NCBI GenBank assembly: GCA_003220225.1
Contig: QHRU01000056.1
Span: forward strand, 1 to 64,000
Length of the DNA stretch: 64,000 bases
Direction of reading: 5' to 3'
Source: Candidatus Rokuibacteriota bacterium
GTDB taxonomy: Bacteria; Methylomirabilota; Methylomirabilia; Rokubacteriales; CSP1-6
Under the pieces are notes generated by a model, which was given only the letters and a program-made list of their open reading frames with translations, was not told the origin of the DNA and did no database searches. Below are positions 39,351 through 55,201 of the stretch, one piece after another; within the stretch, counting starts at the first letter, position 1, and the number at the start of each line of letters is the position of its first letter. The position numbers and the translations under genes are program-made.

Positions 39351-39624
39351 GACTCTCGCCCAGCACAAGCTCAATCCGCTGGCGTACTCGCTTCTCTACG
39401 TGGATGGTCCGTGGGTCAACGGCATCCTGGTGAGCCATCTCTGGTCCGTCGCGGGTCGCAGTAGTCGGCAGGACGTGAGCGTGCCGATCGGGGTGGATGT
39501 CGGACGAACGTTCACGATCGGCTCCCAGGGCATCAGCCTGCAGATCGGCGCCTACGACAACGTCAAGAAGCCGACCGGAGCCGCCGAGTGGGTGCTCGAC
39601 ACGCAGGTCTCGTGGCTCTACTAA
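39351..39624 (+). pseudogene. C-terminal fragment of an outer-membrane beta-barrel protein
   Basis: About 90 codons reading HKLNPLAYSLLYVDGPWVNG, ILVSHLWSVAG, then SVPIGVDVGRTFTIGSQGIS and ending WVLDTQVSWLY with a terminal aromatic. This is the end of the neuromedin-U-like porin/transporter family. The N-terminal three quarters are missing, and an internal stretch (the NYN-GWYL region normally between these blocks) is also deleted. It is a remnant with no clear start, lying 69 bp after an operator copy and overlapping the cyclase stop by 4 bp. Confidence 0.6.
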
Positions 39625-42512
39625 GCGAGTCGACGCTGCAGATATCGGGCGATGGCAGGGGCCACCGCCGTGAAGCGGACCACGAAGCCGGGCGCGGTCG
39701 CCGGGATCGTCTCGATCACCTTCGCGTAGATCTCGCCCGCTTCGGAGCCAACCTCCTCGCCGATCCAGATCTTCACGTTGCTCCGCGGGGGCACCGGCGC
39801 GGCGGATCGTATCTCGCCGCCCCGGCTCGACAACGCCACGAAGCTCGCGTCGACGACGCGGCTTTCCACGCGCTTGTCCTCCAGCATGGCGTAGCGGATG
39901 GGGATTTCTGCGCCGAGTGCGACCATCGCGGGCTCCTCCTCGCATAGCAACAGCTGATACGCGCCGCCGATGCCGATCAGCTTCCAGACCGTCAGCGGGT
40001 GCCGCGCGCCCTTCGGCTCGATCTGCAGCGAGCGGCTGACCTTGACCATTGAGCCGGCTTCGCGCAGCGTGCTGTCGGAGATCAGGATCTCGCCGCCTGT
40101 CGTGTACGACTCGATCCGTCCCGTCAGGTTGACGGCGCTGCCCACGGCCGCATACTTCATCCGGCGGTCCGAGCCGATGTTGCCGACGATCACCTCGCCG
40201 GTGTGGACGCCGATGCCCATCTCGATCTCCGGCAATCCCCGCTCCCGATTTCGCGCGTTCAGGCCGCCCATGGCCTGCTGCATGGCCACCGCGCACGCGA
40301 GGGCGCGCTCGGCGTCGTCCGGCGCCGCTGTGGGCGCCCCGAAGATGACGAGGATGCCGTCGCCCATGATCTCGTTGATCGTTCCGCGGTACCGGAGGAT
40401 CAGGTCCACCATGGTCTGGAGATAGTCGTTCAGGAACCGGATGGCCTCCTCCGGCGTGAGCCGCTCGGCCAGGGGGGTGAAGCCTCTGAGATCCGACATC
40501 ATCACGGTGACCCGGCGCAGCTCGCCGCCGAGCTTGAGGCCCTCGGGCGAGTCGAGGAGGCTGGCGACGACGTCGTCGGACACGTAGCGTCCGAACGTCT
40601 CGCGTATGAATGCGCCGTGCGCCTCGGTGGCCTTCAGCTCCGTCAGATCGTGCGCAGCGCAGACGATGCCGCCGATCGCGCTCGTGCCGCGGCCGATCAC
40701 CGCGCTCGAGAACAGGACCGGGACCTCCCGGCCGTCGTGAATCTTGTAGACGGCCTCACGACCGCCGATCCGTCCGTACCGGAGCACTTCTTCGAGCCAC
40801 ATCCCGGGCGGACCGCCGCCGGGCCCCGTTCCGGGCCTGATCGCGGAAATCAGGGCGCCGATGCGCCGCCCGAGCATCTCGCCCGCCGTGTGGCCCAGCA
40901 TGCGGCACGCCTCCGGGTTCACCGTGACGACCACCGCGTCGCGCCAGTTACGCGCATCGTCGGGCGGCCGGACGACGATCACCGCGTCACTCATCGAGTC
41001 GAGGATGCTGCTCACGTGGTCACGCGAGACGGTCGTCTCCTGGAGGTCGCTCGCCATTCGGTCGAAGGCCATCGCGATCTGACCGATCTCGTCACCCCGC
41101 GCCTCAGCAAGGCGATAGCCGAGATCGCCCCGGCCGAGCCTGCCCATGCCGACGATCAGGCGGCGGAGCGGCGTCGTGAGCGAGCGCGCGAGGAGAATCG
41201 CCGTCACGGCCACGAGCGCGGTGACGCCGGCCGCCGTCGCCAGGAGCGCGCGCCGAAGGGCGACCGCCGGGGCGAACGCCTCCGCCGTGTCGAGCTGCGC
41301 GACGATCCCCCAGCGCAGATCGCCGACGTCGAGGGGCGAGTACGAGGCGAGGACCGGCTGCTCCCGGTAATCGAGCTCCGTCAAGACGCCCGTCCGGCCA
41401 TCCAGCGCGGCCTGAGCCGCCGCGCCGCTGATCTGCTGGAACAGCACGGTGCGCTGGTGGGTCCGCATGAGCTCGAGCAGCTCACCGGGCACGCCGGTCT
41501 GCGCGGCCGTCTCGAGGTACCGCTGCGGCGCGGTCAGAAAAAACCGCGAATCGCTTCGCATCCGGCGATCCGGGCCGATGAGGTAGGTCTCTCCCGTCCG
41601 GCCCAATCCCTGCGTCTCCCACTTCCGGTCGCCGGTCATGACGGCGTTGATGCGATCGACCGGGAGCTGCAGCGCCACGACGCCGAGGCGCCGGCCTTCT
41701 CTGAAGATCGGCGCGGCCACGAACGCCGCCGGCGCGCCCAGTGAGGGTGCGTACGACTCGAAGTCGACGAGCTGAACGAAATCGGCCTCGACGGCCATGC
41801 GGGCCGCGCGAAACGCCCGGCTGAGCCGCGTGTTCCGGTACGGCCCGGACAGGAGACTCGTGCCGAACTCGAGCTTCTTGGCCACGGTGTAGACGACGCG
41901 ACCGTCCTCGTGCTCGATCAGAAACAAGTCTTCGTACCCGAACTGACGGACCATCGATCGCAGGACGGGGTTGAGTCGCGCGTGCGCCTCCCCGTAACGT
42001 CCAGCGCCCACCGGACGGTCCAACCGATCGCGCGATGCCTCGGGGTTGGGGTTGTTCACGATGAAGAGGGCTTGCAGCGCGATCGTCACGTCGTCGGCCG
42101 GCACATCGCCCCACGCTCGCTCCGGGCCGGCCTCCGGCTCGAACGCCCGCAGGTGCGGCACGAACGCCTCGCGGTAGTACCGGGCGACCTCCGAGCGGTA
42201 TCGGACCCACGTCGTGTCAGGCCAACCGGCCACCTGCGCTTCGAGGCCTCGATAGGCCGCCCTGAATTCCTCCATCGCCGCGATGACGTCGCGAGACTCG
42301 GCAAGCGTCATGGCGTCACGCCGCACACCGGCGACGTAGGCCTCGATCTGCCGCTTGCGTTCCGCGCGGATCGACGTGAGCTGGTTGATCGCGGCCCGGC
42401 GGAGCGACACCTCTGCGCCCTGGTCCGCCTGCCAGCCCGTCGCGAGCAGGGCCAGCAGGCCCACCCCGAGCAACGCGGCGAGGAGCCTGGTCCGGAGCGA
42501 GACAGGTTTCAG
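39621..42512 (-). CDS. Sensor class III adenylate/guanylate cyclase (Cache-HAMP-PAS-cyclase-PilZ-like)
   Basis: About 963 residues. The N-terminal helix (RLLAALLGVGLLALLATGW) precedes a large periplasmic Cache-type sensor (about 30-440). A second helix and HAMP follow (RSLTTPLRRLIVGMGRLGRG), then PAS (about 510-640) and the cyclase domain (VTVMMSDLRGFTPLAERL metal site; EIMGDGILVIFG; NLTGRIES). The C-terminus is PilZ-like (PIRYAMLEDKRVESRVVDAS). It makes a cyclic nucleotide in response to a periplasmic signal. No ATG fits; CTG 42512, one base after the upstream stop and five after GGGAG, is the likeliest start. It is the third gene after two binding proteins, which may present the ligand. Confidence 0.85.
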   Translation of the reverse strand: MKPVSLRTRLLAALLGVGLLALLATGWQADQGAEVSLRRAAINQLTSIRAERKRQIEAYVAGVRRDAMTLAESRDVIAAMEEFRAAYRGLEAQVAGWPDTTWVRYRSEVARYYREAFVPHLRAFEPEAGPERAWGDVPADDVTIALQALFIVNNPNPEASRDRLDRPVGAGRYGEAHARLNPVLRSMVRQFGYEDLFLIEHEDGRVVYTVAKKLEFGTSLLSGPYRNTRLSRAFRAARMAVEADFVQLVDFESYAPSLGAPAAFVAAPIFREGRRLGVVALQLPVDRINAVMTGDRKWETQGLGRTGETYLIGPDRRMRSDSRFFLTAPQRYLETAAQTGVPGELLELMRTHQRTVLFQQISGAAAQAALDGRTGVLTELDYREQPVLASYSPLDVGDLRWGIVAQLDTAEAFAPAVALRRALLATAAGVTALVAVTAILLARSLTTPLRRLIVGMGRLGRGDLGYRLAEARGDEIGQIAMAFDRMASDLQETTVSRDHVSSILDSMSDAVIVVRPPDDARNWRDAVVVTVNPEACRMLGHTAGEMLGRRIGALISAIRPGTGPGGGPPGMWLEEVLRYGRIGGREAVYKIHDGREVPVLFSSAVIGRGTSAIGGIVCAAHDLTELKATEAHGAFIRETFGRYVSDDVVASLLDSPEGLKLGGELRRVTVMMSDLRGFTPLAERLTPEEAIRFLNDYLQTMVDLILRYRGTINEIMGDGILVIFGAPTAAPDDAERALACAVAMQQAMGGLNARNRERGLPEIEMGIGVHTGEVIVGNIGSDRRMKYAAVGSAVNLTGRIESYTTGGEILISDSTLREAGSMVKVSRSLQIEPKGARHPLTVWKLIGIGGAYQLLLCEEEPAMVALGAEIPIRYAMLEDKRVESRVVDASFVALSSRGGEIRSAAPVPPRSNVKIWIGEEVGSEAGEIYAKVIETIPATAPGFVVRFTAVAPAIARYLQRRLA

Positions 42513-42513
42513 T

Positions 42514-43311
42514 TCAGCTCCCGACGAGGCGCCCTTCGAACGCCCGGAAATGGCGGCGCCACATCTCCACGTAGCTACCGTCCCTGCGCATCCTCGCGAG
42601 CCAGCCATTCACCCACCGGATCAGCCCCGTGTCCCCTTTTCGAGCCGCGACCGCGTATGGTCGCGGTCCGAGGGGCAAACCTGTGACCCGTAGCGCGGGG
42701 TCGTGCTGCGCCAGCGACAGCAATGTCACGTCGTCGTACACGAACGCGTCGGCCTGGCCGCCCTTGACGGCGCGCGCGCCCTCCGCGACCGAGCCGACCC
42801 CGATCAGGAGCGCACGCGGCTGCCACTGCGCGATGTCGCGCTCCTGGACGGAGCCCCGGATGACGGCGACCCGCCGCGCGGCCAGCGCGCCGATGCCGTC
42901 CACGCCGCTGGCCGCCGGCACCAGGAGCAGCGACGCCGACACGAAGTACGGCTCCGAGAGCTCCGCCACCTGCCGCCGCTCCTCGGTCGCGGTGACCGTG
43001 GCGATCAACAGATCCACACGGCCCGCATGCAGCTCCGCGAATCGCGTCGCCGTGGTCACCGGGACGAACCGCGCCCGGCGCTCGTCGTCGAACAAGACGC
43101 GCGCCAGATACCGCGTCAGATCGATCTCGAGCCCGACGAGGCGGCCATTCGCGTCGCGCGATCCGAACGCAGGGGCGTCCGTCTTGACACCGACGCGGAG
43201 CACACCGCGGGCGCGGATGTCGTCGAGCGAAGACTCGGCGTGTGCCCCGGTGACGACCGCGAGCACGACCGCGACGACCACCCACGTCCTGGCGACGCCG
43301 CGTCGGCTCAT
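42514..43311 (-). CDS. Family 3 periplasmic solute-binding protein
   Basis: A 265-residue exported protein with a signal peptide (WVVVAVVLAVVTGAHA) and the SBP_bac_3 fold: LDDIRARGVLRVGVKTDAPA, GLEIDLTRYLARVL, FAELHAGRVDLLIATVTATE, GGQADAFVYDDVTLL. Members bind amino acids or similar small molecules, but no permease or ATPase is adjacent. ATG 43311 overlaps the stop of the upstream gene (ATGA), and the cyclase begins about one base after its own stop. This suggests a sensing rather than transport role. Confidence 0.88.
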   Translation of the reverse strand: MSRRGVARTWVVVAVVLAVVTGAHAESSLDDIRARGVLRVGVKTDAPAFGSRDANGRLVGLEIDLTRYLARVLFDDERRARFVPVTTATRFAELHAGRVDLLIATVTATEERRQVAELSEPYFVSASLLLVPAASGVDGIGALAARRVAVIRGSVQERDIAQWQPRALLIGVGSVAEGARAVKGGQADAFVYDDVTLLSLAQHDPALRVTGLPLGPRPYAVAARKGDTGLIRWVNGWLARMRRDGSYVEMWRRHFRAFEGRLVGS

Positions 43312-44312
43312 GACACGGTCTCCGCCCGCTGCCGCAGCGCCGGCGGAATCGTCAGGCCGAGGGCCTGGGCCGTTGTGAGATTGATCACCAACTCGAACCG
43401 GTCGGCTTCCTCGACGGGCAGGTCGCCGGCCGGTGTTCCTCGCAGGATCTTGTCGACGTGCCCGGCGGCGCGTCTGCACAGGTCGACCAGGTCCACCGAC
43501 AGGGACATCAAGCCACCGGCGTCGGGGAACAACCGGTCACCATAGATGGCGGGCAGCCGGGCCGCAGCGGCCAACGCCACGAGCCGGGCCCGATGATGAC
43601 TGAACATGGCGTCCCCGGGGACGAAGAGCGCGTCGAGTCGCTTGGCGGCAATGCGCTTGAACGCGTCGCCGAATTCCGTGGCCTCGAACACGCCGATCTC
43701 CTCCAGCGTGATGCCGAGCGGCGCGCCGGCCCTGACGGCCGCGCGCAGGATTCGTGGATGGATCGGATTCGTCAGGTTGACGAGAAGGGCCATCCGCCTC
43801 ACGCGCGGGCTCGCCTCCCGCAGCAGCGCGATCCGTTTCTGGATGAGCGTGATGCCACCGCCGTAGCCGGTGATGTTGCCTCCGGGCTTCGCCGCGCTCG
43901 AGACGATCCCGAAGTCGACGGGGTCGCCCCCGGTCACGAACACGATCGGGATCTTCGCCGTCGCCCGCTTGGCGGCGAGGGCCACGGGCGTCCCGATCCC
44001 CGTGACAATGAGGTTCACCCCGAGCCCGATGAGCTCTGCGACGAGTCCGGGCAGCCGCTCCAGGTCCCCCTCCGCCGAGCGCGGCTCGATGCGGAAGCCG
44101 CGTCCCTCGGCCCAGCCGCGGTCGGCCAAGCCTCGCCGAAGCGCGTCGAGGTAGCGCGGTGGCAGAACGCGCTCCGAGACGAAGCCGATGGCGGCCAGCT
44201 TTCCCGCGGGTTGCCCTGCGGCCACGCGCGGCCCATACGCGACGGCAAGCGTGCCGCCGATGAACGCGCGCCGCGAGATTGCTGGACGCTCGCGCGGGCA
44301 TGTCACAGCCAC
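43308..44312 (-). CDS. ABC-type substrate-binding protein (PF04392 family)
   Basis: A 334-residue exported protein. The N-terminus has a twin-arginine-like RRAFIGGTLAVAYGPRVAAG. The two-lobed binding fold follows: IGFVSERVLPPRYLDALRRG, LADRGWAEGRGFRIEPRSAE, GVNLIVTGIGTPVALAAKRA, IPIVFVTGGDPVDFGIV and a closing NLTTAQALGLTIPPALRQRA. This PF04392 family is greatly expanded in soil lineages. No cognate permease is present. It is the first gene of the three-gene unit with a second binding protein and the sensor cyclase. An operator lies 35 bp upstream. Confidence 0.9.
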   Translation of the reverse strand: MAVTCPRERPAISRRAFIGGTLAVAYGPRVAAGQPAGKLAAIGFVSERVLPPRYLDALRRGLADRGWAEGRGFRIEPRSAEGDLERLPGLVAELIGLGVNLIVTGIGTPVALAAKRATAKIPIVFVTGGDPVDFGIVSSAAKPGGNITGYGGGITLIQKRIALLREASPRVRRMALLVNLTNPIHPRILRAAVRAGAPLGITLEEIGVFEATEFGDAFKRIAAKRLDALFVPGDAMFSHHRARLVALAAAARLPAIYGDRLFPDAGGLMSLSVDLVDLCRRAAGHVDKILRGTPAGDLPVEEADRFELVINLTTAQALGLTIPPALRQRAETVS

Positions 44313-44455: not shown

Positions 44456-45001
44456 GTGGAGATGATTCTTGTTCGCCAGCTGGCGGGCGACCTCTTCGTG
44501 CCGGTCCTGGTCGTGGACACGACGGGGACGGTGGTCTTCTACAACGAGCCCGCCGAGCGCATTCTCGGGGTGCGCTTCGAGGAGACCGGACGCATCGGCC
44601 CCGACGACATCGACCGGCTCGTCGAGTTGAGCGACAATCCTGCCGCCGGCCCGGACGAAGCAGGACGACCACTGGTCATCGCGCTGCAGCAGCGGCGTCC
44701 TGCCCACGCGCGTCGCTGGCTCTTGCGCCGCGGCGATCGCGTGCGGCTGCAGGTCGAGCTCCACGACGCGCAATACACCCGCGACGAGCACTCCCGCCAC
44801 GTGGGCTGGGGACACAGCACGATTCACGATGCACTGGCCTTCGCCCGGCTGGCCGGCGTCAAGCACCTGGTGCCGTTCCATCACGATCCCGGGCGGGACG
44901 ACGCCGCGCTCGAGGCGGCGGTCGGTGCCGGCATCGCCGACCTGCGCCCCGACTTCCCGGTGACGCCGGCGGCCGAGGGACGAAGCTTCGACCTCCGCTG
45001 A
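44456..45001 (+). CDS. PAS domain fused to the C-terminus of a metallo-beta-lactamase-fold protein
   Basis: About 181 residues. The first part is a PAS domain (ILVRQLAGDLFVPVLVVDTT, GTVVFYNEPAERILG, RPLVIALQQRRPAH) cut near its last strands. Without a frame change it runs into HDAQYTRDEHSRHVGWGHST and GVKHLVPFHHDPGRDD, then TPAAEGRSFDL. That is the end of a Lactamase_B_2-type metallo-hydrolase, lacking the HxHxDH metal motif. The lactamase half therefore cannot be catalytic alone. It is either a genuine fusion acting as a sensor scaffold or a chimera of two broken genes. Start is uncertain (GTG 44456, ATG 44462, or GTG 44408). Confidence 0.6.
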   Translation: MEMILVRQLAGDLFVPVLVVDTTGTVVFYNEPAERILGVRFEETGRIGPDDIDRLVELSDNPAAGPDEAGRPLVIALQQRRPAHARRWLLRRGDRVRLQVELHDAQYTRDEHSRHVGWGHSTIHDALAFARLAGVKHLVPFHHDPGRDDAALEAAVGAGIADLRPDFPVTPAAEGRSFDLR

Positions 45002-46653: not shown

Positions 46654-47796
46654 ATGGCGGTCGTGGCACCGGAAGCGACGCTCGAGTTCAGCCGCCCGGC
46701 GGGCGACACTCTCGTGCTGCGGCTGTCCGGCGCCTGGACCATTCACGAGCGGCTGCCTTCCGTGGACGACGTCGAGCGCGAGCTCGAGGCCGGCGGCGCC
46801 GTGCGCCGCCTGCTCTTCGACACCGAATGTCTCGCGGCGTGGGACAGTGCCCTGCTGACGTTTCTCCTGCGGGTCGCCGCCCAGGCCGACGGCCGCGGCG
46901 TCGCCGCCTGCCGCGGCGGGTTGCCCGAGGGAGTGCGTCGCCTGCTCGCGCTGGCCATGGCCGTCCCGGAACGTCGAGACATCGGGACGGCCGCCGCGAG
47001 GCTCTCCTGGCTCGCGCGCGTCGGTCTCGCGACGCTCGAGGGCGTTCGCGATGCAGGGGTAACGCTGACGTTCGTCGGGGCGGTGTCGATCGCCTTCGCG
47101 CGTTCTCTGCTCGGCCGCGCCCGGTACCGTCGCTCGGACTTCCTCCTCGTCCTGCAAGAGGTCGGTGCGCAGGCGCTGCCGATCGTCAGCCTCATCAGCT
47201 TCCTCGTGGGCGTGATCCTGGCCTACGTCGGCGCCATCCAGCTGCGCCAGTTCGGCGCGCAGGTCTACGTCGCCGACCTCGTCGGCATCGGCATGACGCG
47301 CGAGATGGGCGCGATGATGGCGGCCGTGATCATGGCCGGTCGCACCGGCGCGGCCTTCGCGGCGCAGCTCGGCACGATGCAGGTCAACGAGGAGATCGAC
47401 GCGCTGACGACGCTGGGCATCTCACCGATCGAGTTCCTCGTGCTGCCGCGGATGCTCGCGCTCGCCGTCATGATGCCGCTGCTCGCGCTATACGCCGATC
47501 TGCTCGGGCTGCTCGGTGGGATGGCGGTCGGCGTCGGCATGCTCGACCTCGGCGTCGTCGAGTACTACCTGCGAACCATCGGGGCGATCGGCCTCGACGA
47601 CTGTGTCGCCGGCCTGATCAAGGCCTCGGTGTTCGGCGTGCTGATCGCGATGGCCGGATGCCTGCGCGGCATCCAGTGCGGCCGCAGCTCCGCCGCCGTC
47701 GGCGCCGCGACCACGTCGGCCGTCGTCACCGGCATCGTGCTCATCATCGTGTCCGACGCGGCCACGACCGTCATCTTCGACCTGATCGGGTTGTAG
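46654..47796 (+). CDS. mlaE: MlaE-family permease with N-terminal STAS-like domain
   Basis: A 380-residue inner-membrane permease. Residues about 10-105 form a STAS-like (MlaB-type) domain fused in front (LVLRLSGAWTIHERLPSVDD). The MlaE domain follows: SFLVGVILAYVGAIQLRQFG, GIGMTREMGAMMAAVIMAGR, TGAAFAAQLGTMQVNEEIDA and ISPIEFLVLPRMLAL. It forms the membrane core of the phospholipid ABC transporter with MlaF and MlaD. The fused STAS domain explains why no separate mlaB is present. Confidence 0.93.
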   Translation: MAVVAPEATLEFSRPAGDTLVLRLSGAWTIHERLPSVDDVERELEAGGAVRRLLFDTECLAAWDSALLTFLLRVAAQADGRGVAACRGGLPEGVRRLLALAMAVPERRDIGTAAARLSWLARVGLATLEGVRDAGVTLTFVGAVSIAFARSLLGRARYRRSDFLLVLQEVGAQALPIVSLISFLVGVILAYVGAIQLRQFGAQVYVADLVGIGMTREMGAMMAAVIMAGRTGAAFAAQLGTMQVNEEIDALTTLGISPIEFLVLPRMLALAVMMPLLALYADLLGLLGGMAVGVGMLDLGVVEYYLRTIGAIGLDDCVAGLIKASVFGVLIAMAGCLRGIQCGRSSAAVGAATTSAVVTGIVLIIVSDAATTVIFDLIGL

Positions 47797-47797
47797 G

Positions 47798-48130
47798 ATG
47801 CCGCCGACGCGACACCTCGTGGCCTGCGTTCTCCTGGCCGAGATCTTCAACGTGCCGTGCGGCGCGGGCTGTCTCGTCAAGACCGTCGCCAAGAACTCCC
47901 CCGCCTGGAACGCCGGCGTGCTCGGCGGCGACCGGCCGGCCACCATCCAGGGCCAGGAGATCGTGGTCCGCGGCGACCTCATGCTCGAGGTGACGGGGAT
48001 CGGCATCCGCGGCGTGCAGGACATGGCGCAGATCCGCGACACGCTCGGGACGATGAAGACGGGATCGCCGCTGGCGATCTCCGTGCTGCGGGCGGGCAAG
48101 GTCATCGAGCTGACCGGGACGCTGCCATGA
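47798..48130 (+). CDS. Stand-alone PDZ-domain protein inside the Mla operon
   Basis: A 110-residue protein that is essentially one PDZ domain: GCLVKTVAKNSPAWNAGVLG, GQEIVVRGDLMLEVTGIGI, LAISVLRAGKVIELTGTLP. It is closely similar, block by block, to residues about 247-344 of the HtrA-like protease at 26604-27638, but the protease domain is gone. The N-terminus (PPTRHLVACVLLAEIFNVPC) has a short hydrophobic stretch that could be a weak signal. It starts one base after mlaE and overlaps mlaF by ATGA, so it is firmly part of the operon. It may act as an adaptor that tethers or regulates the transporter. Confidence 0.82.
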   Translation: MPPTRHLVACVLLAEIFNVPCGAGCLVKTVAKNSPAWNAGVLGGDRPATIQGQEIVVRGDLMLEVTGIGIRGVQDMAQIRDTLGTMKTGSPLAISVLRAGKVIELTGTLP

Positions 48131-48903
48131 GCGCACCCGACCTCCGCATCGAGGTCCGCGACCTCGACATGCGCTACGGCGAGCGCGTGATCCAGCGCGA
48201 CCTCAACTTCACCGTCCGCACGGACGACATCTTCGTGATCATGGGCGGCAGCGGCTGTGGCAAGAGCACCCTGCTCCGGCATCTCATCGGGCTCGTACGG
48301 CCTGCGCGTGGCGATGTCTTCTACGACGGCGAGAGTTTCTGGACGGCGGACCCGGACGAGCGCGACCGCATGACCCGGCGCTTCGGTGTGCTCTACCAGA
48401 GCGGCGCCCTCTGGTCCTCGCTGACGCTCGCCGAGAACGTCGCGTTGCCGCTCGGAGAGTACACGGACCTCGACGCCCACCGGATCGCCGAGCTGGTGTC
48501 GCTCAAGCTCGCGCTGGTCGGTCTCGCGGGCTTCGAGGAGTTCTACCCCTCGGAGATCAGCGGGGGAATGCGCAAGCGCGCGGGCCTGGCCCGGGCCATG
48601 GCGCTCGATCCCGACATCCTGTTCTTCGACGAGCCCTCGGCCGGGCTCGATCCCATCAGCAGCAAGCTGCTCGACGACCTGATCCTCGAGCTGCGCGCCA
48701 GCCTCGGGGCGACGGTCGTCGTCGTGACGCACGAGCTGGCGAGCATCTTCGCCATCGCAACCAACTGCGTGTTCCTCGACGCGGAGACCAAGACCATGAT
48801 CGCCACGGGGGCCCCGAAGGTGCTGCTCGAGCAGCCGCCCGATCCCAAGGTCCGGCAATTTCTCACCCGCGGCGCATCGAACGGGAGGAAGCCTCATGGC
48901 TAA
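48127..48903 (+). CDS. mlaF: MlaF-family ABC transporter ATPase
   Basis: A 258-residue ATPase: Walker A GGSGCGKSTLLRHL, Q-loop LYQSGALWSSLTLAENV, signature SGGMRKRAGLARAMAL, Walker B ILFFDEPSAGLDP and switch His in VVVTHELASIFAI. The Q-loop and TLAENVALPL context are typical of MlaF/Mkl. It powers lipid transport through MlaE. ATG 48127 overlaps the PDZ gene stop; its end overlaps mlaD by 8 bp. Confidence 0.96.
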   Translation: MSAPDLRIEVRDLDMRYGERVIQRDLNFTVRTDDIFVIMGGSGCGKSTLLRHLIGLVRPARGDVFYDGESFWTADPDERDRMTRRFGVLYQSGALWSSLTLAENVALPLGEYTDLDAHRIAELVSLKLALVGLAGFEEFYPSEISGGMRKRAGLARAMALDPDILFFDEPSAGLDPISSKLLDDLILELRASLGATVVVVTHELASIFAIATNCVFLDAETKTMIATGAPKVLLEQPPDPKVRQFLTRGASNGRKPHG

Positions 48904-49957
48904 GCGGGCGAACCCGGCGCTCATCGGCGGCTTCGTCGTCGGCGCGCTGTTGCTCGCCGTCACCGGCCTGGTCGTCCTCGGTGGCGGCCATTTCTTTCGG
49001 CTGACCAAGCCGATGGTGGCCTATTTCGAGGGCTCCGTGAAGGGACTCTCGATCGGCGCGCCCGTGACGTTCCAGGGCGTGAGGATCGGTACGGTGAGCG
49101 ACGTGCGCGTCGTGATCGACACGAAGGACCTGAAGATGGCCACGCCGGTCTTCTTCGAAATCGACGCCGGGCGCCTCACCGAAGCGAGCGGTGCCACGTT
49201 GAAGCTGCGCAAAGGCTCCGAGGGCATGAAGACGCTCATTCAGCGCGGGCTGCGCGCCGAGCTTGAGCTGCAGAGCTTTGTCACCGGCCAGGTGGGGATT
49301 GCCCTCGCCTTCCACCCCGACACTCCGGTGAGGCTCACCGGCTTGTCGCCTGAGTATCCCGAGATGCCGACGGTGGCCTCGGGCATGGAGAAGCTGACCC
49401 GCACGCTCGAGACGCTGCCGATCGACGAGATCATGACCGCGGCGAAGGAGACCCTGGAAGGCATCAAGGCGCTGGTGCAAGCCCCCGAGACGCGGGAGAC
49501 GCTGCGCGCGCTGCAGGGGACGGTCCAGCGGTCCGACGCCACACTGCTCGCGATTCAGAGGCTCGCCCGGCGAGTGGAGACGCAGATCGATCCGTTGATG
49601 ACGCAGCTGGATGCGACCGCAAAGTCCGCACGGGCCGCGCTCGACCAGGCACAGTCGTCGCTGGCTCGCCTGACGCCCAGGGTCGACGACTCGCTGAAGG
49701 ACTACCAGACGCTCGCCCGCAATCTCGACGAGCGCCTCGGCCGGCTCTCGGCAAGTCTGGACCGCACGCTCGCCAGCGTCGATCGCACTCTCGGGGGCGC
49801 CGACGACGTCTTGGCCGACGGCTCGCAGCTCCGCTACAGCCTGGTGACCGCGCTCGATGAGCTGGCGGAAGCGGCGCAGAGCATCCGCGTCCTCGCGGAT
49901 TACCTGGAACGCAACCCGAGCTCGCTCGTCTTCGGGAAGGGACGGGTATCGAAATGA
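48896..49957 (+). CDS. mlaD: MlaD-family MCE lipid-binding protein
   Basis: A 353-residue protein with one N-terminal membrane helix (LIGGFVVGALLLAVTGLVVL) and an MCE domain (about 40-120: VAYFEGSVKGLSIGAPVTFQ, GVRIGTVSDVRVVID). It ends in a long coiled-coil C-terminus (SARAALDQAQSSLARLTPRV) like PqiB/YebT-related MCE proteins rather than short E. coli MlaD. MCE rings form the periplasmic lipid channel of the complex. It overlaps mlaF by 8 bp and the next lipoprotein gene by 4 bp. Confidence 0.93.
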   Translation: MAKRANPALIGGFVVGALLLAVTGLVVLGGGHFFRLTKPMVAYFEGSVKGLSIGAPVTFQGVRIGTVSDVRVVIDTKDLKMATPVFFEIDAGRLTEASGATLKLRKGSEGMKTLIQRGLRAELELQSFVTGQVGIALAFHPDTPVRLTGLSPEYPEMPTVASGMEKLTRTLETLPIDEIMTAAKETLEGIKALVQAPETRETLRALQGTVQRSDATLLAIQRLARRVETQIDPLMTQLDATAKSARAALDQAQSSLARLTPRVDDSLKDYQTLARNLDERLGRLSASLDRTLASVDRTLGGADDVLADGSQLRYSLVTALDELAEAAQSIRVLADYLERNPSSLVFGKGRVSK

Positions 49958-51779: not shown

Positions 51780-53834
51780 GTGAGGAAGACAACAGCGACC
51801 GCCGTCCTCGTCGCGCTCGGCTACTACGCCGGCGCCAACATCGGGTTCGTTCTCAGATTCCCGCCGTCCACACCGTCGTTCGTGTGGCCGCCGAACGCCA
51901 TTCTGACTGCGGCGCTGCTGCTCGTGCCGCCTCGGCGGTGGTGGATCTGCCTGCTCGCCGCGTTCCCGGTACACCTCGCCGCGGAATTGCAGGTGTCGTG
52001 GCCGAGCTCCCTCGTGCTCGCCCTCTTCGTCACGAACTGCAGCGAGGCCCTGATCGCCGCCGGCGGCGTCCGGTGGCTGAGCGGTGCGCCCGCGCGGTTC
52101 GACACCCTGCGCCGGATGGCGGTCTTCATCGTGGCCGCCGGTCTCGTCGCGCCGTTCCTTTCCTCGTTCCTCGACGCCGCGGTGGTCACGGTGGTGCATG
52201 AGGAGTCGTACGCGTCGGTCTGGCGGACGCGGTTCTTCTCCAACGTCTTGACCCAGCTGCTGCTCGTGCCAGCCATCGTGATGTGCGCCACGGCCGGCCC
52301 CGCCTGGCTTCGTGGCGCGCCGCGCGCGCGACGGGCCGAGGCGGCGCTCCTGGCGGCGGCACTCGTGCTCGTCGCGGGTTGGGTCTTCGGTCTGGTGACG
52401 GCCGGCCCGACGATTCTCGGCGGCCCGGCCACCCCCGTCGTGTTCCTCCTGCCGATCATCTTGCTCGCGGCGGTGCGGTTCGGGCCGGGCGGCACGAGTC
52501 TCTGCCTGCTCGGCACATCGTTCGTCGCCATCGTGGCGGCCGCACACGGACGAGGACCATTCGCGAACCTGCCGCCCGCCGCGACCGTACTCACGCTGCA
52601 GACCCTGCTGATCGTGCTGGCCATCCCGATCCTGTGCCTGGCGGCGGTCCTCGTCGAGCACCGTCACGCGCGGGCCATGCTGGGAGAGCGCGTCGGGGCC
52701 TTGCATGCCAGCGAGGCGTTGAAGTCGGCGATCCTGGGCTCGCTGAACACCTCCGTCGCCGTCCTGGACCGGGACGGCCGGATCATCGATGTCAACGCGA
52801 ACTGGGGCCGCGTCGCCGCCGAGCGCGGCGCATCGCTGTCGGCCGGGCTCGGCGTGGGCGGAAGCTTTCTCGAGACGTGGCGGCAGGCCGCCGGCGGCGG
52901 GATGCCCAAGGCCGACGAGGCCGCGGCCAGCATCCTCGGCGTGCTGCGCGGAGCGCGTCAGGATTTCGCCTTCGAGTATCCCTGCCACAACGGAGCGGCC
53001 GAGCGATGGTTCGCGATGTTTGTCGTTCGCCTCGACCGTCCGGAGGGCGGCGCCGTCGTGGCCTGCGCCGACATCACCGCGCGGAAGGCCGCGGAGCTGG
53101 ACCTCGAGCGAAGCCGCCAGGAGATCACGCACGACATGCGCGTCTTCATGATGGGAGAGCTGACCGCCTCGCTCGCCCACGAGCTGAACCAGCCGCTTAC
53201 GGGGATCCTGACCAACGCCGGGGCCGGCCTCCGATTCCTCGACGTCGCTGCAGCCGATGTCGGCGAGCTGCAGGCGATCCTGTCCGACATCGTGGACGAC
53301 GGCAAGCGCGCGGGCGAGGTGATCCAGCGCATGCGCGACTTTTTGCGCAAGAGCCAGCCCCAGCGCGCAGCGCTCGACCTGAACGTCGTGGTGCAGGAGG
53401 TCGTCCAGATGCTCACCAGCGATGCGATCATCCGCAACGTCAGCATCACGGTCGACCTCGACGACCAGCCGGTCGTCGTCTGCGCCGATCGCGTGCAGCT
53501 CCAGCAGGTCGTCCTCAACCTCTTGCTCAATGCGATCGAGGCGATGGCCGAGTCCACGGGACGAGAGCGCACGATCGTCGTGCGAGCGAGGAACACAGAG
53601 GTCCAGACGGTGCACGTCGCGGTGGAGGACCGCGGGATGGGAGTCCGCGCCGGCACCTACGACATGCTCTTCGAGCCCTTCTTCACCACGAAGCCGACGG
53701 GCATGGGCATGGGACTGGCGATCTGCCGATCGATCATCGAGGCCCACGACGGTGTCATCTGGGCGCAGGACAACCCCTCGGGAGGCGCGGCGTTTCACTT
53801 CGCGCTGCCCGCCTTCGGCGCCGCCACGACGTGA
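51780..53834 (+). CDS. MASE1-PAS sensor histidine kinase (paralogue of 7202-9757)
   Basis: A 684-residue membrane kinase. The MASE1 domain (about 5-290, GFVLRFPPSTPSFVWPPNAI) is closely similar to the 7202 kinase. PAS (about 305-440), HisKA with phospho-His in SLAHELNQPLTGILTN and HATPase (NLLLNAIEAM, GMGMGLAICRSI) follow. The GAF domain of the paralogue is missing, so the two probably sense different inputs through a shared membrane module. GTG 51780 start. Its stop overlaps the next receiver gene (GTGA), the same junction as in the first pair. Confidence 0.9.
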   Translation: MRKTTATAVLVALGYYAGANIGFVLRFPPSTPSFVWPPNAILTAALLLVPPRRWWICLLAAFPVHLAAELQVSWPSSLVLALFVTNCSEALIAAGGVRWLSGAPARFDTLRRMAVFIVAAGLVAPFLSSFLDAAVVTVVHEESYASVWRTRFFSNVLTQLLLVPAIVMCATAGPAWLRGAPRARRAEAALLAAALVLVAGWVFGLVTAGPTILGGPATPVVFLLPIILLAAVRFGPGGTSLCLLGTSFVAIVAAAHGRGPFANLPPAATVLTLQTLLIVLAIPILCLAAVLVEHRHARAMLGERVGALHASEALKSAILGSLNTSVAVLDRDGRIIDVNANWGRVAAERGASLSAGLGVGGSFLETWRQAAGGGMPKADEAAASILGVLRGARQDFAFEYPCHNGAAERWFAMFVVRLDRPEGGAVVACADITARKAAELDLERSRQEITHDMRVFMMGELTASLAHELNQPLTGILTNAGAGLRFLDVAAADVGELQAILSDIVDDGKRAGEVIQRMRDFLRKSQPQRAALDLNVVVQEVVQMLTSDAIIRNVSITVDLDDQPVVVCADRVQLQQVVLNLLLNAIEAMAESTGRERTIVVRARNTEVQTVHVAVEDRGMGVRAGTYDMLFEPFFTTKPTGMGMGLAICRSIIEAHDGVIWAQDNPSGGAAFHFALPAFGAATT

Positions 53835-54253
53835 CAGAACCCAGCGTCAGCGTCGTCATCGTCGACGACGACCTGGCCGTCCGACGCGGACTGACGCGGC
53901 TGCTCAAAGTATCGGGATACGATGTCGAGGCCTTTGCGTCCGGGCGGGCCTTCCTCGAGCGTGGCGACTACGGTCGCGTGACCTGTCTCCTGCTCGACGT
54001 CCGGATGCCGGGCCAGAGCGGGCTCGACGTCCAGCGCCTGCTGGTCGGGGCCGGCTATGACATCCCGATCATCTTCATCACCGGTCACGGTGACTCGGCG
54101 ATGGCCGCGCAAGCGCTGAACGGCGGGGCCGTGGAGTTCATCACCAAGCCATTCGACGACACCATCCTCCTCGATGCCGTACGCCGGGCGGTCGTCAGAG
54201 GCCGCCAGCTCCCTCTTCCGCAGACCGACGGCCGCGACCCCTCGCCCTCCTGA
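53831..54253 (+). CDS. Receiver-only response regulator coupled to the second MASE1 kinase
   Basis: A 140-residue receiver with VVIVDDDLAVRRGL, Asp in LLLDVRMPG, Thr in FITGHGD and Lys in FITKPFDDTIL. The GTG start overlaps the kinase TGA. No DNA-binding domain is present and no LuxR-type gene follows, unlike the first operon, so output must pass to another protein, perhaps the regulator at 10167-10871. Confidence 0.9.
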   Translation: MTEPSVSVVIVDDDLAVRRGLTRLLKVSGYDVEAFASGRAFLERGDYGRVTCLLLDVRMPGQSGLDVQRLLVGAGYDIPIIFITGHGDSAMAAQALNGGAVEFITKPFDDTILLDAVRRAVVRGRQLPLPQTDGRDPSPS

Positions 54254-54267: not shown

Positions 54268-54343
54268 AGCCCGTTCCGCCGGGCGGCTGCTTTCATCGGG
54301 GCAGCGGGTGGAGGAGCGCGCCCGCCACCGGAGGAACGGCGTG

Positions 54344-55201
54344 ATGAGACGCGTGGGGCTCGCCGTGATGCTCGTGGTCATGTCTGCGGCGCCGGCGGCG
54401 GCGGCGGGACCCGAGGGGACGCTGAAGCGCATCAAGGACACGAAGACGATGACGCTGGGGTACCGCGACTCGTCGTGGCCGTTCTCGTTCACCGGCGACG
54501 ACGGTAAGCCGGCCGGGTACTCGGTGGATCTCTGCCTGAAGATCGCCGACGCGGTCCAGAAGGATCTGGCCCTGCCGGAGCTGCGGCTGAAGTGGGTCAG
54601 GGTGTCGCCCGCGAATCGGATCAAGGCGGTCGTCGACGGCACCATCGACATCGAGTGTGGCTCGACGACCGCCTCGCTGTCGCGGCAGACGCTCGTCGAT
54701 TTCACGATGGCGACCTTCCTCGACGGAGGCAGCCTCCTCACCACGGACGCGTCGGGCATCGAGAGCGTCGTGGACCTCGGCGGCAAGCGCGTCGGGATCG
54801 TGCCCGGCACGACCACCGAGGGCGCCCTCCGCGAGGCGCTGCGCCGCTACATGATCACGGCCCGGATGGTCGCGGTGCAGGATCACGCCGAGGGACTGGC
54901 GGCGCTCGAGAAGGGCGAGGCCGACGCCTATGCCTCGGACCGCACGATTCTCATCGGCCTGGCCCGGCGGGGCCACCGCGCCGCGAAGTTCACGCTGTCC
55001 TCGCAACTGTTCTCCTACGAGGTGTACGGCTTCATGCTCCGCCGCGGCGACGCGGATTTCCGGCTCACCGCCAATCGCGCGTTGTCGCGAGTCTTCCGCT
55101 CCGACGACATCGTCCGCATCTACGAGAAATGGTTCGGCGACCTGGGACGGCCGACCATCGCGCTCCAGCTCATGTACGTGATCTCGGCCTCGCCGGAATA
55201 G
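54344..55201 (+). CDS. GltI-like family 3 periplasmic amino-acid-binding protein
   Basis: A 285-residue exported protein; signal peptide cut after AAPAAAA. The SBP_bac_3 fold resembles glutamate/aspartate-binding GltI: LKRIKDTKTMTLGYRDSSWP, FSFTGDDGKPAGYSVDLCLK, VSPANRIKAVVDGTIDIECG, RRYMITARMVAVQDHAEGLA. No amino-acid permease follows; instead the gene heads an RND efflux operon 20 bp downstream. The start follows GGAGGAAC. It may serve as a ligand sensor, or may simply share the promoter. Confidence 0.88.
   Translation: MRRVGLAVMLVVMSAAPAAAAGPEGTLKRIKDTKTMTLGYRDSSWPFSFTGDDGKPAGYSVDLCLKIADAVQKDLALPELRLKWVRVSPANRIKAVVDGTIDIECGSTTASLSRQTLVDFTMATFLDGGSLLTTDASGIESVVDLGGKRVGIVPGTTTEGALREALRRYMITARMVAVQDHAEGLAALEKGEADAYASDRTILIGLARRGHRAAKFTLSSQLFSYEVYGFMLRRGDADFRLTANRALSRVFRSDDIVRIYEKWFGDLGRPTIALQLMYVISASPE

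Follow-up and report, generated by a model that had tools for sequence, protein, structure and literature searches.

Three consecutive genes, here called P1, P2 and P3, were found on the minus strand in the order P1, P2, P3, spanning 44312-39621 of the window, i.e., the whole 64,000-nucleotide stretch of Candidatus Rokuibacteriota DNA, from a soil bacterium not in culture, that was analysed. The genes, their junctions and the segments of the P3 protein are as follows.

44312-43308, minus strand: P1, GTG start, 334 residues, solute-binding protein of family PF04392 (ABC_sub_bind)
43308..43311, minus strand: P1/P2 junction, ATGA stop/start overlap (TCATGA), identical in the companion species
43311-42514, minus strand: P2, 265 residues, family 3 solute-binding protein (PF00497, SBP_bac_3; E 1.3e-26)
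42510..42516, minus strand: P2/P3 junction, TGA-A-CTG (TGA-G-CTG in the companion species)
39621..42512, minus strand: P3, membrane sensor class III cyclase, 963 residues from CTG
41196..42512, minus strand: P3 residues 1-439, by hydropathy a first transmembrane segment (within about residues 4-29), an extracytoplasmic dCache_1 region and a second transmembrane segment (beginning at about residue 421)
40623..41195, minus strand: P3 residues 440-630, HAMP (PF00672, E 1.6e-14) and PAS_9 (PF13426, E 1.9e-7)
39963..40610, minus strand: P3 residues 635-850, FGRY transducer element (residues 640-643) and class III catalytic domain
39624..39959, minus strand: P3 residues 852-963, predicted PilZ-fold tail lacking c-di-GMP-binding motifs

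The first-pass annotation had described a PF04392 binding protein, a family 3 binding protein and a Cache-HAMP-PAS-class III cyclase, joined by ATGA and TGA-A-CTG junctions and having no ABC permease or ATPase of their own. The Pfam domains agreed with this description, both junctions were confirmed on the sequence and recur as the same pattern in the companion species of the same genus (G008), and no permease or ATPase gene adjoins the trio in the window. The nearest ABC genes form a Mla-type lipid transport set at 46654-49957, divergent on the opposite strand, and the other flanking genes encode an MMPL protein and a seven-TM protein. Scanning the surroundings of the trio for promoters, terminators and Rfam families returned nothing useful. 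The host assembly (G000, with the trio on contig C91) comprises 167 contigs and 6.03 Mb and is 97% complete; genome-wide gene counts from it are estimates. No ATG, GTG or TTG occurs at the conserved P3 start after the P2 stop, where a CTG is conserved in G008; an alternative start, the ATG at 42608 inside P2, would give an overlapping gene for a protein of 995 residues. Two neighbouring regions were also inspected. A divergent gene at 44456-45001 encodes a PAS domain together with a short stretch resembling a metallo-beta-lactamase; it has no called counterpart in G008, although about 70 bases upstream of P1 are conserved in both species. At 54308-55201, a second family 3 binding protein without a permease comes right after genes for a MASE1-PAS-histidine kinase (51780-53834) and for a response regulator (53831-54253); efflux-type genes follow it.

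P1 matched PF04392 with an E-value of 5.8e-40 and 137.8 bits against a cut-off of 25.9, and its N-terminus, as read from the sequence, resembles a twin-arginine signal (SRRAFIGG). It is not assigned to the tryptophan-binding protein TrpX, reaching 111 bits against a cut-off of 390 for that NCBIfam equivalog. PF04392 is a very large and mostly orphan family in this lineage: the 60 loci sampled were mostly without permeases and often tandem, and only two of them lay near a cyclase. At loci L174, L195 and L197, four to six PF04392 genes stand in a row with no permease. Because such orphans are the rule in the lineage, being permease-less says little for P1, and the lack of a permease was rejected as evidence on its own.

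In G008 the trio has the same order and spacing, with protein identities between the two species of 92, 86 and 85% and dN/dS values of 0.18, 0.31 and 0.30 for P1, P2 and P3, respectively, indicating that the three genes are real and under purifying selection. The block flanking the trio is likewise syntenic between G000 and G008, which makes the conserved order a weak test. In G009, a third species of the genus, the homologue of the flanking seven-TM gene has no trio next to it, and a genome of another genus (G004) contains, at a contig end, the C-terminal part of a P3 homologue with 64% identity. The neighbourhood search that the first-pass annotation had proposed thus far shows the same three-gene order in two species of one genus. 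The P3 sensor was detected at E <= 1e-20 in only 2 of 95 genomes of the phylum (G000 and G008), and a scan of genome contigs with two weak back-translated patterns returned the companion species only. Relatives of this sensor on plasmids are about 30-35% identical. From this and from its presence in only two genomes of the phylum, we infer that the P3 sensor is likely of foreign origin. The trio could also be a neutral neighbourhood, drawn from the many orphan PF04392 genes, in which nothing functional links P1 and P2 to P3. The abundance and frequent tandem arrangement of mostly orphan PF04392 genes and the presence of the trio in two species only are compatible with this, but the stop/start overlaps, the identical spacing in both species, the low dN/dS values and the strong enrichment of PF04392 genes next to dCache receptors elsewhere (see below) make it very improbable.

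P2 carries a Sec-like signal (AHA/ES). Its nearest relatives outside the trio (41-50% identity) are all encoded immediately upstream of a pair of HisM/Q-type permeases, which were identified from their size, TM segments and order, and three remoter relatives (36-38%) likewise adjoin such permeases. G008 holds both the trio copy of P2 and a permease-linked copy, the latter being 90% identical to that of G009 and about 47% identical to P2 over the part present. G000 has no permease pair cognate to the P2 relatives (best match 39%), and contains other HisM/Q-type permeases. Because G008 keeps a separate permease-linked copy, P2 appears to be a diverged paralogue; this copy, together with the missing cognate pair in G000, suggests that P2 is not simply the binding protein of that importer. 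We read P2 as a paralogue that left an importer. The idea that it is all that remains of an importer that decayed was rejected, as G008 has both systems. The first-pass annotation had named orthologous binding proteins beside permeases as evidence against a signalling role; we found this arrangement for the relatives of P2 and not for P2, a diverged paralogue. In an alignment to 6h1u, P2 keeps R112 and D193, positions that contact the amino acid in this family. A polar or acidic amino acid is thus a reasonable guess as the most likely ligand of P2.

The extracytoplasmic region of P3 lies between two hydrophobic segments and is followed by HAMP, which is the topology of a membrane receptor. Its match to dCache_1 (PF02743) had an E-value of 1e-9 and 38.8 bits, under the Pfam cut-off of 45, and a model of the sensor built from two sequences reached a pLDDT of 37. 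The Guanylate_cyc domain was matched with an E-value of 1.6e-23. A loss of catalytic residues on full alignment had been named as a point against the proposed module; all of them are present, including the metal aspartates D674 and D718, the transition-state residues N795 and R799, and the purine-site residue Glu714, a position occupied by Lys in adenylyl cyclases. Among PDB sequences, the closest are the catalytic domain of Cya2 (2w01, E 7e-65) and a chimera carrying the Cya2 domain. Cya2 is a guanylyl cyclase, and the single change E488K converts it to an adenylyl cyclase (PMC5995499). P3, like G008 and the response-regulator cyclase of locus L081, has Ala (Ala788 in P3) at the second substrate position, whereas Cya2 has Gly; P3 is therefore Cya2-like but not identical. 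Because of Glu714, and because the closest solved natural cyclase is Cya2, cGMP is the likely product of P3, which narrows the earlier designation as a cAMP/cGMP cyclase to a probable guanylyl cyclase.

The P3 tail gave no Pfam match at E<1. Its AlphaFold (AF2) model, with a pLDDT of 88, is a six-stranded barrel with a C-terminal helix, and the nine PDB structures that match it at E <= 1e-3 are without exception PilZ domains, belonging to Alg44 or a similar P. aeruginosa protein (best E 2.8e-5). Further matches were mostly other PilZ domains, and the best overall include Alg44, CeSA, MapZ and YcgR. The tail was thus aptly called PilZ-like as far as the predicted fold is concerned. However, neither RxxxR nor (D/N)xSxxG is conserved across 19 aligned tails on inspection, the nearest sequence in P3 being ALSSRG. 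We therefore rejected c-di-GMP binding by the tail, and the cross-connection to c-di-GMP that had been suggested is not supported, because the tail has the fold without the motifs. Besides the G008 orthologue, 17 other cyclases of the lineage have related tails, and two of these are response-regulator cyclases (L081:1358-2770 and L082:7517-8911). The same kind of tail on response-regulator cyclases means that it travels with the cyclase family, not with the sensor. Cya2 itself has a C-terminal extension of 118 residues that stimulates activity and has been described as structurally uncharacterised. The simplest reading is that the P3 tail would play the same role, and its predicted fold offers a candidate structure for this extension in Cya2-type cyclases.

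A tblastn search of plasmids with P1 revealed, in Rhizobium leguminosarum, a PF04392 gene and a dCache-HAMP-cyclase gene that share a 17-base overlap and have no permease in their vicinity. A search with this Rhizobium-type sensor returned 55 plasmid records from six genera, and every genus had an adjoining PF04392 gene. The receptors are cyclases in four genera and kinases in two. In the Rhizobium leguminosarum group, the PF04392 gene precedes the dCache-HAMP-cyclase gene and overlaps it; in Microvirga it precedes the cyclase gene or lies on both sides; in Methylobacterium it follows; in Sinorhizobium fredii the two are convergent; and in Diaphorobacter and Terrarubrum it precedes a dCache-HAMP-HisKA-REC kinase. 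The gene order therefore changes while the partnership is constant, as a physical or functional pair would give. In S. fredii GR64 the two genes are about 4 kb apart, and the laboratory strain Rhizobium johnstonii 3841 has the pair as a PF04392 gene (RL_RS30325) and a cyclase gene (RL_RS30330). The plasmid pairs were recorded at loci L110:8004-10797, L113, L120, L117, L249, L250, L251, L252 and L253. The Rhizobium, Microvirga, Methylobacterium and S. fredii pairs share with the trio the binding-protein family, the membrane topology, the cyclase class and the lack of a permease of their own. They differ from it in having no PAS domain, PilZ tail or family 3 binding protein, and in a non-homologous dCache subtype: no sequence homology was detectable between the P3 sensor and the Rhizobium-type sensor.

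Within Rokubacteria, a PF04392 sequence, in some cases only a fragment, lies directly upstream on the same strand of 6 of the 26 usable Rhizobium-type receptors. At a base rate of 1%, which is itself an estimate, this corresponds to a binomial p of about 2e-7, with loci that are not fully independent. The rokubacterial receptors of this type that were examined are kinases, and a response-regulator cyclase follows in some clusters. At L157:3087-8480, L166:6823-11188 and L169:2788-12589, a HAMP-GAF-histidine kinase (with dCache in L166 and L169) is followed by a response regulator; a cyclase comes next in L157 and L166, and a PF04392 gene precedes the kinase in L157 and L169. These clusters look like a relay from a binding protein to a cyclase. 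The host genome also contains, on contig C164 (L086:9426-11434), a PF04392 gene followed by a Rhizobium-type dCache-HAMP-cyclase gene with an internal deletion and a frame change, either a broken gene or an assembly error.

The recurrent partner in these loci is PF04392, not SBP_bac_3, which raises the alternative that P1 alone is the partner of the receptor, P2 being either a passenger or a scavenger whose role is separate. The position of P2 between P1 and P3, the tight junctions, the purifying selection and the retention of R112 and D193 argue against this, and we consider it rather unlikely.

A different alternative is that P1 and P2 are ordinary importer parts whose permeases are encoded elsewhere, and that the dCache domain of P3 is itself a direct sensor of the same nutrient, the genes being co-regulated with no physical coupling. 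dCache domains commonly bind small ligands themselves, and the cyclases examined among the nearest plasmid relatives of the P3 sensor, those of S. meliloti and M14, have no annotated binding-protein neighbour. Furthermore, the nearest relatives of P2 serve ABC importers, and G000 does have further HisM/Q-type permeases. However, the permease pair that would be cognate to P2 is missing in G000 and is present in G008 with its own binding protein, and the PF04392-dCache receptor pairs recur with no permease between or beside them. We therefore regard direct sensing as unlikely, though a serious alternative.

Our preferred reading, for which we judge the chances about even, is that P1, P2 and P3 form one operon for a guanylyl cyclase gated by one or more docking binding proteins. 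The three genes would be co-transcribed, and P1 and P2 would be exported as binding proteins. A ligand-loaded binding protein, most likely P1 and possibly P2, may dock on the dCache domain that the P3 dimer exposes in the periplasm. From there the signal would travel via HAMP, PAS and the FGRY transducer helix to the paired catalytic domains, which would make cGMP. The PilZ-fold tail would have a structural or allosteric role in the cyclase, like the 118-residue tail of Cya2, rather than being a c-di-GMP receptor. The first-pass annotation had proposed that the binding proteins present ligands to the cyclase sensor as a signalling module. This is plausible in view of the trio in two species and the recurrent PF04392-receptor pairs, but an adjoining binding protein and receptor need not interact: in P. 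aeruginosa, solute-binding proteins encoded beside sensor kinases did not bind them in interaction tests (PMC11113362). Because of this counter-case, the non-homologous P3 sensor and the Sinorhizobium relatives without an annotated binding-protein neighbour, the evidence for docking in the trio is by analogy. The strongest support for coupling seems to come from PF04392 genes beside other dCache-HAMP receptors, not from the trio itself, and this recurrent pairing in unrelated bacteria suggests, but does not prove, that binding proteins act as sensors for P3. If the pairing is functional, it would explain the role of many orphan PF04392 proteins and would give an extracellular input for bacterial cGMP, for which, to our knowledge, few inputs are known. 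More broadly, class III cyclases might be a further class of receptors gated by solute-binding proteins, with PF04392 orphans as dedicated co-receptors of dCache-HAMP proteins in Proteobacteria and Rokubacteria, and with two binding proteins feeding one guanylyl cyclase that has a PilZ-fold regulatory tail of the non-c-di-GMP kind; we put this forward tentatively, with somewhat less than even confidence.

That binding proteins can activate membrane receptors is well established. The receptors listed as activated in this way by a survey of 2022 and a study of 2024 are chemoreceptors, histidine kinases, c-di-GMP enzymes and Ser/Thr kinases, and class III cyclases are absent from these lists (PMC9602780, PMC11113362). 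No report of a binding protein paired with an adenylate or guanylate cyclase was found among the titles and opening lines of abstracts in the open-access library searched. In the NspS-MbaA system of Vibrio cholerae and Sinorhizobium meliloti, a periplasmic binding protein sets the level of a cyclic nucleotide via a membrane receptor (PMC9993111, PMC8967002), as proposed for the trio; however, its output is c-di-GMP and it uses one polyamine-sensing binding protein, whereas the trio has the product of a class III cyclase and two binding proteins. In LuxP-LuxQ and other histidine kinases activated by solute-binding proteins (cited in PMC11113362), the periplasmic domain of the receptor is the target of the binding protein, again as proposed here, but the output of LuxP-LuxQ is that of a histidine kinase and its binding protein belongs to a different family. 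XC_0250/XC_0249 of Xanthomonas campestris shares the theme of a class III guanylyl cyclase tied to c-di-GMP signalling (PMC3770947); there, the cyclase domain is joined to TPR repeats, and the connection runs through a cNMP-binding GGDEF protein instead of a PilZ tail. Cya2 of Synechocystis has the FGRY element, the purine-site Glu and a C-terminal extension of about 118 residues, all of which are shared by P3, but its sensor is CHASE2, whereas that of P3 is dCache-HAMP-PAS.
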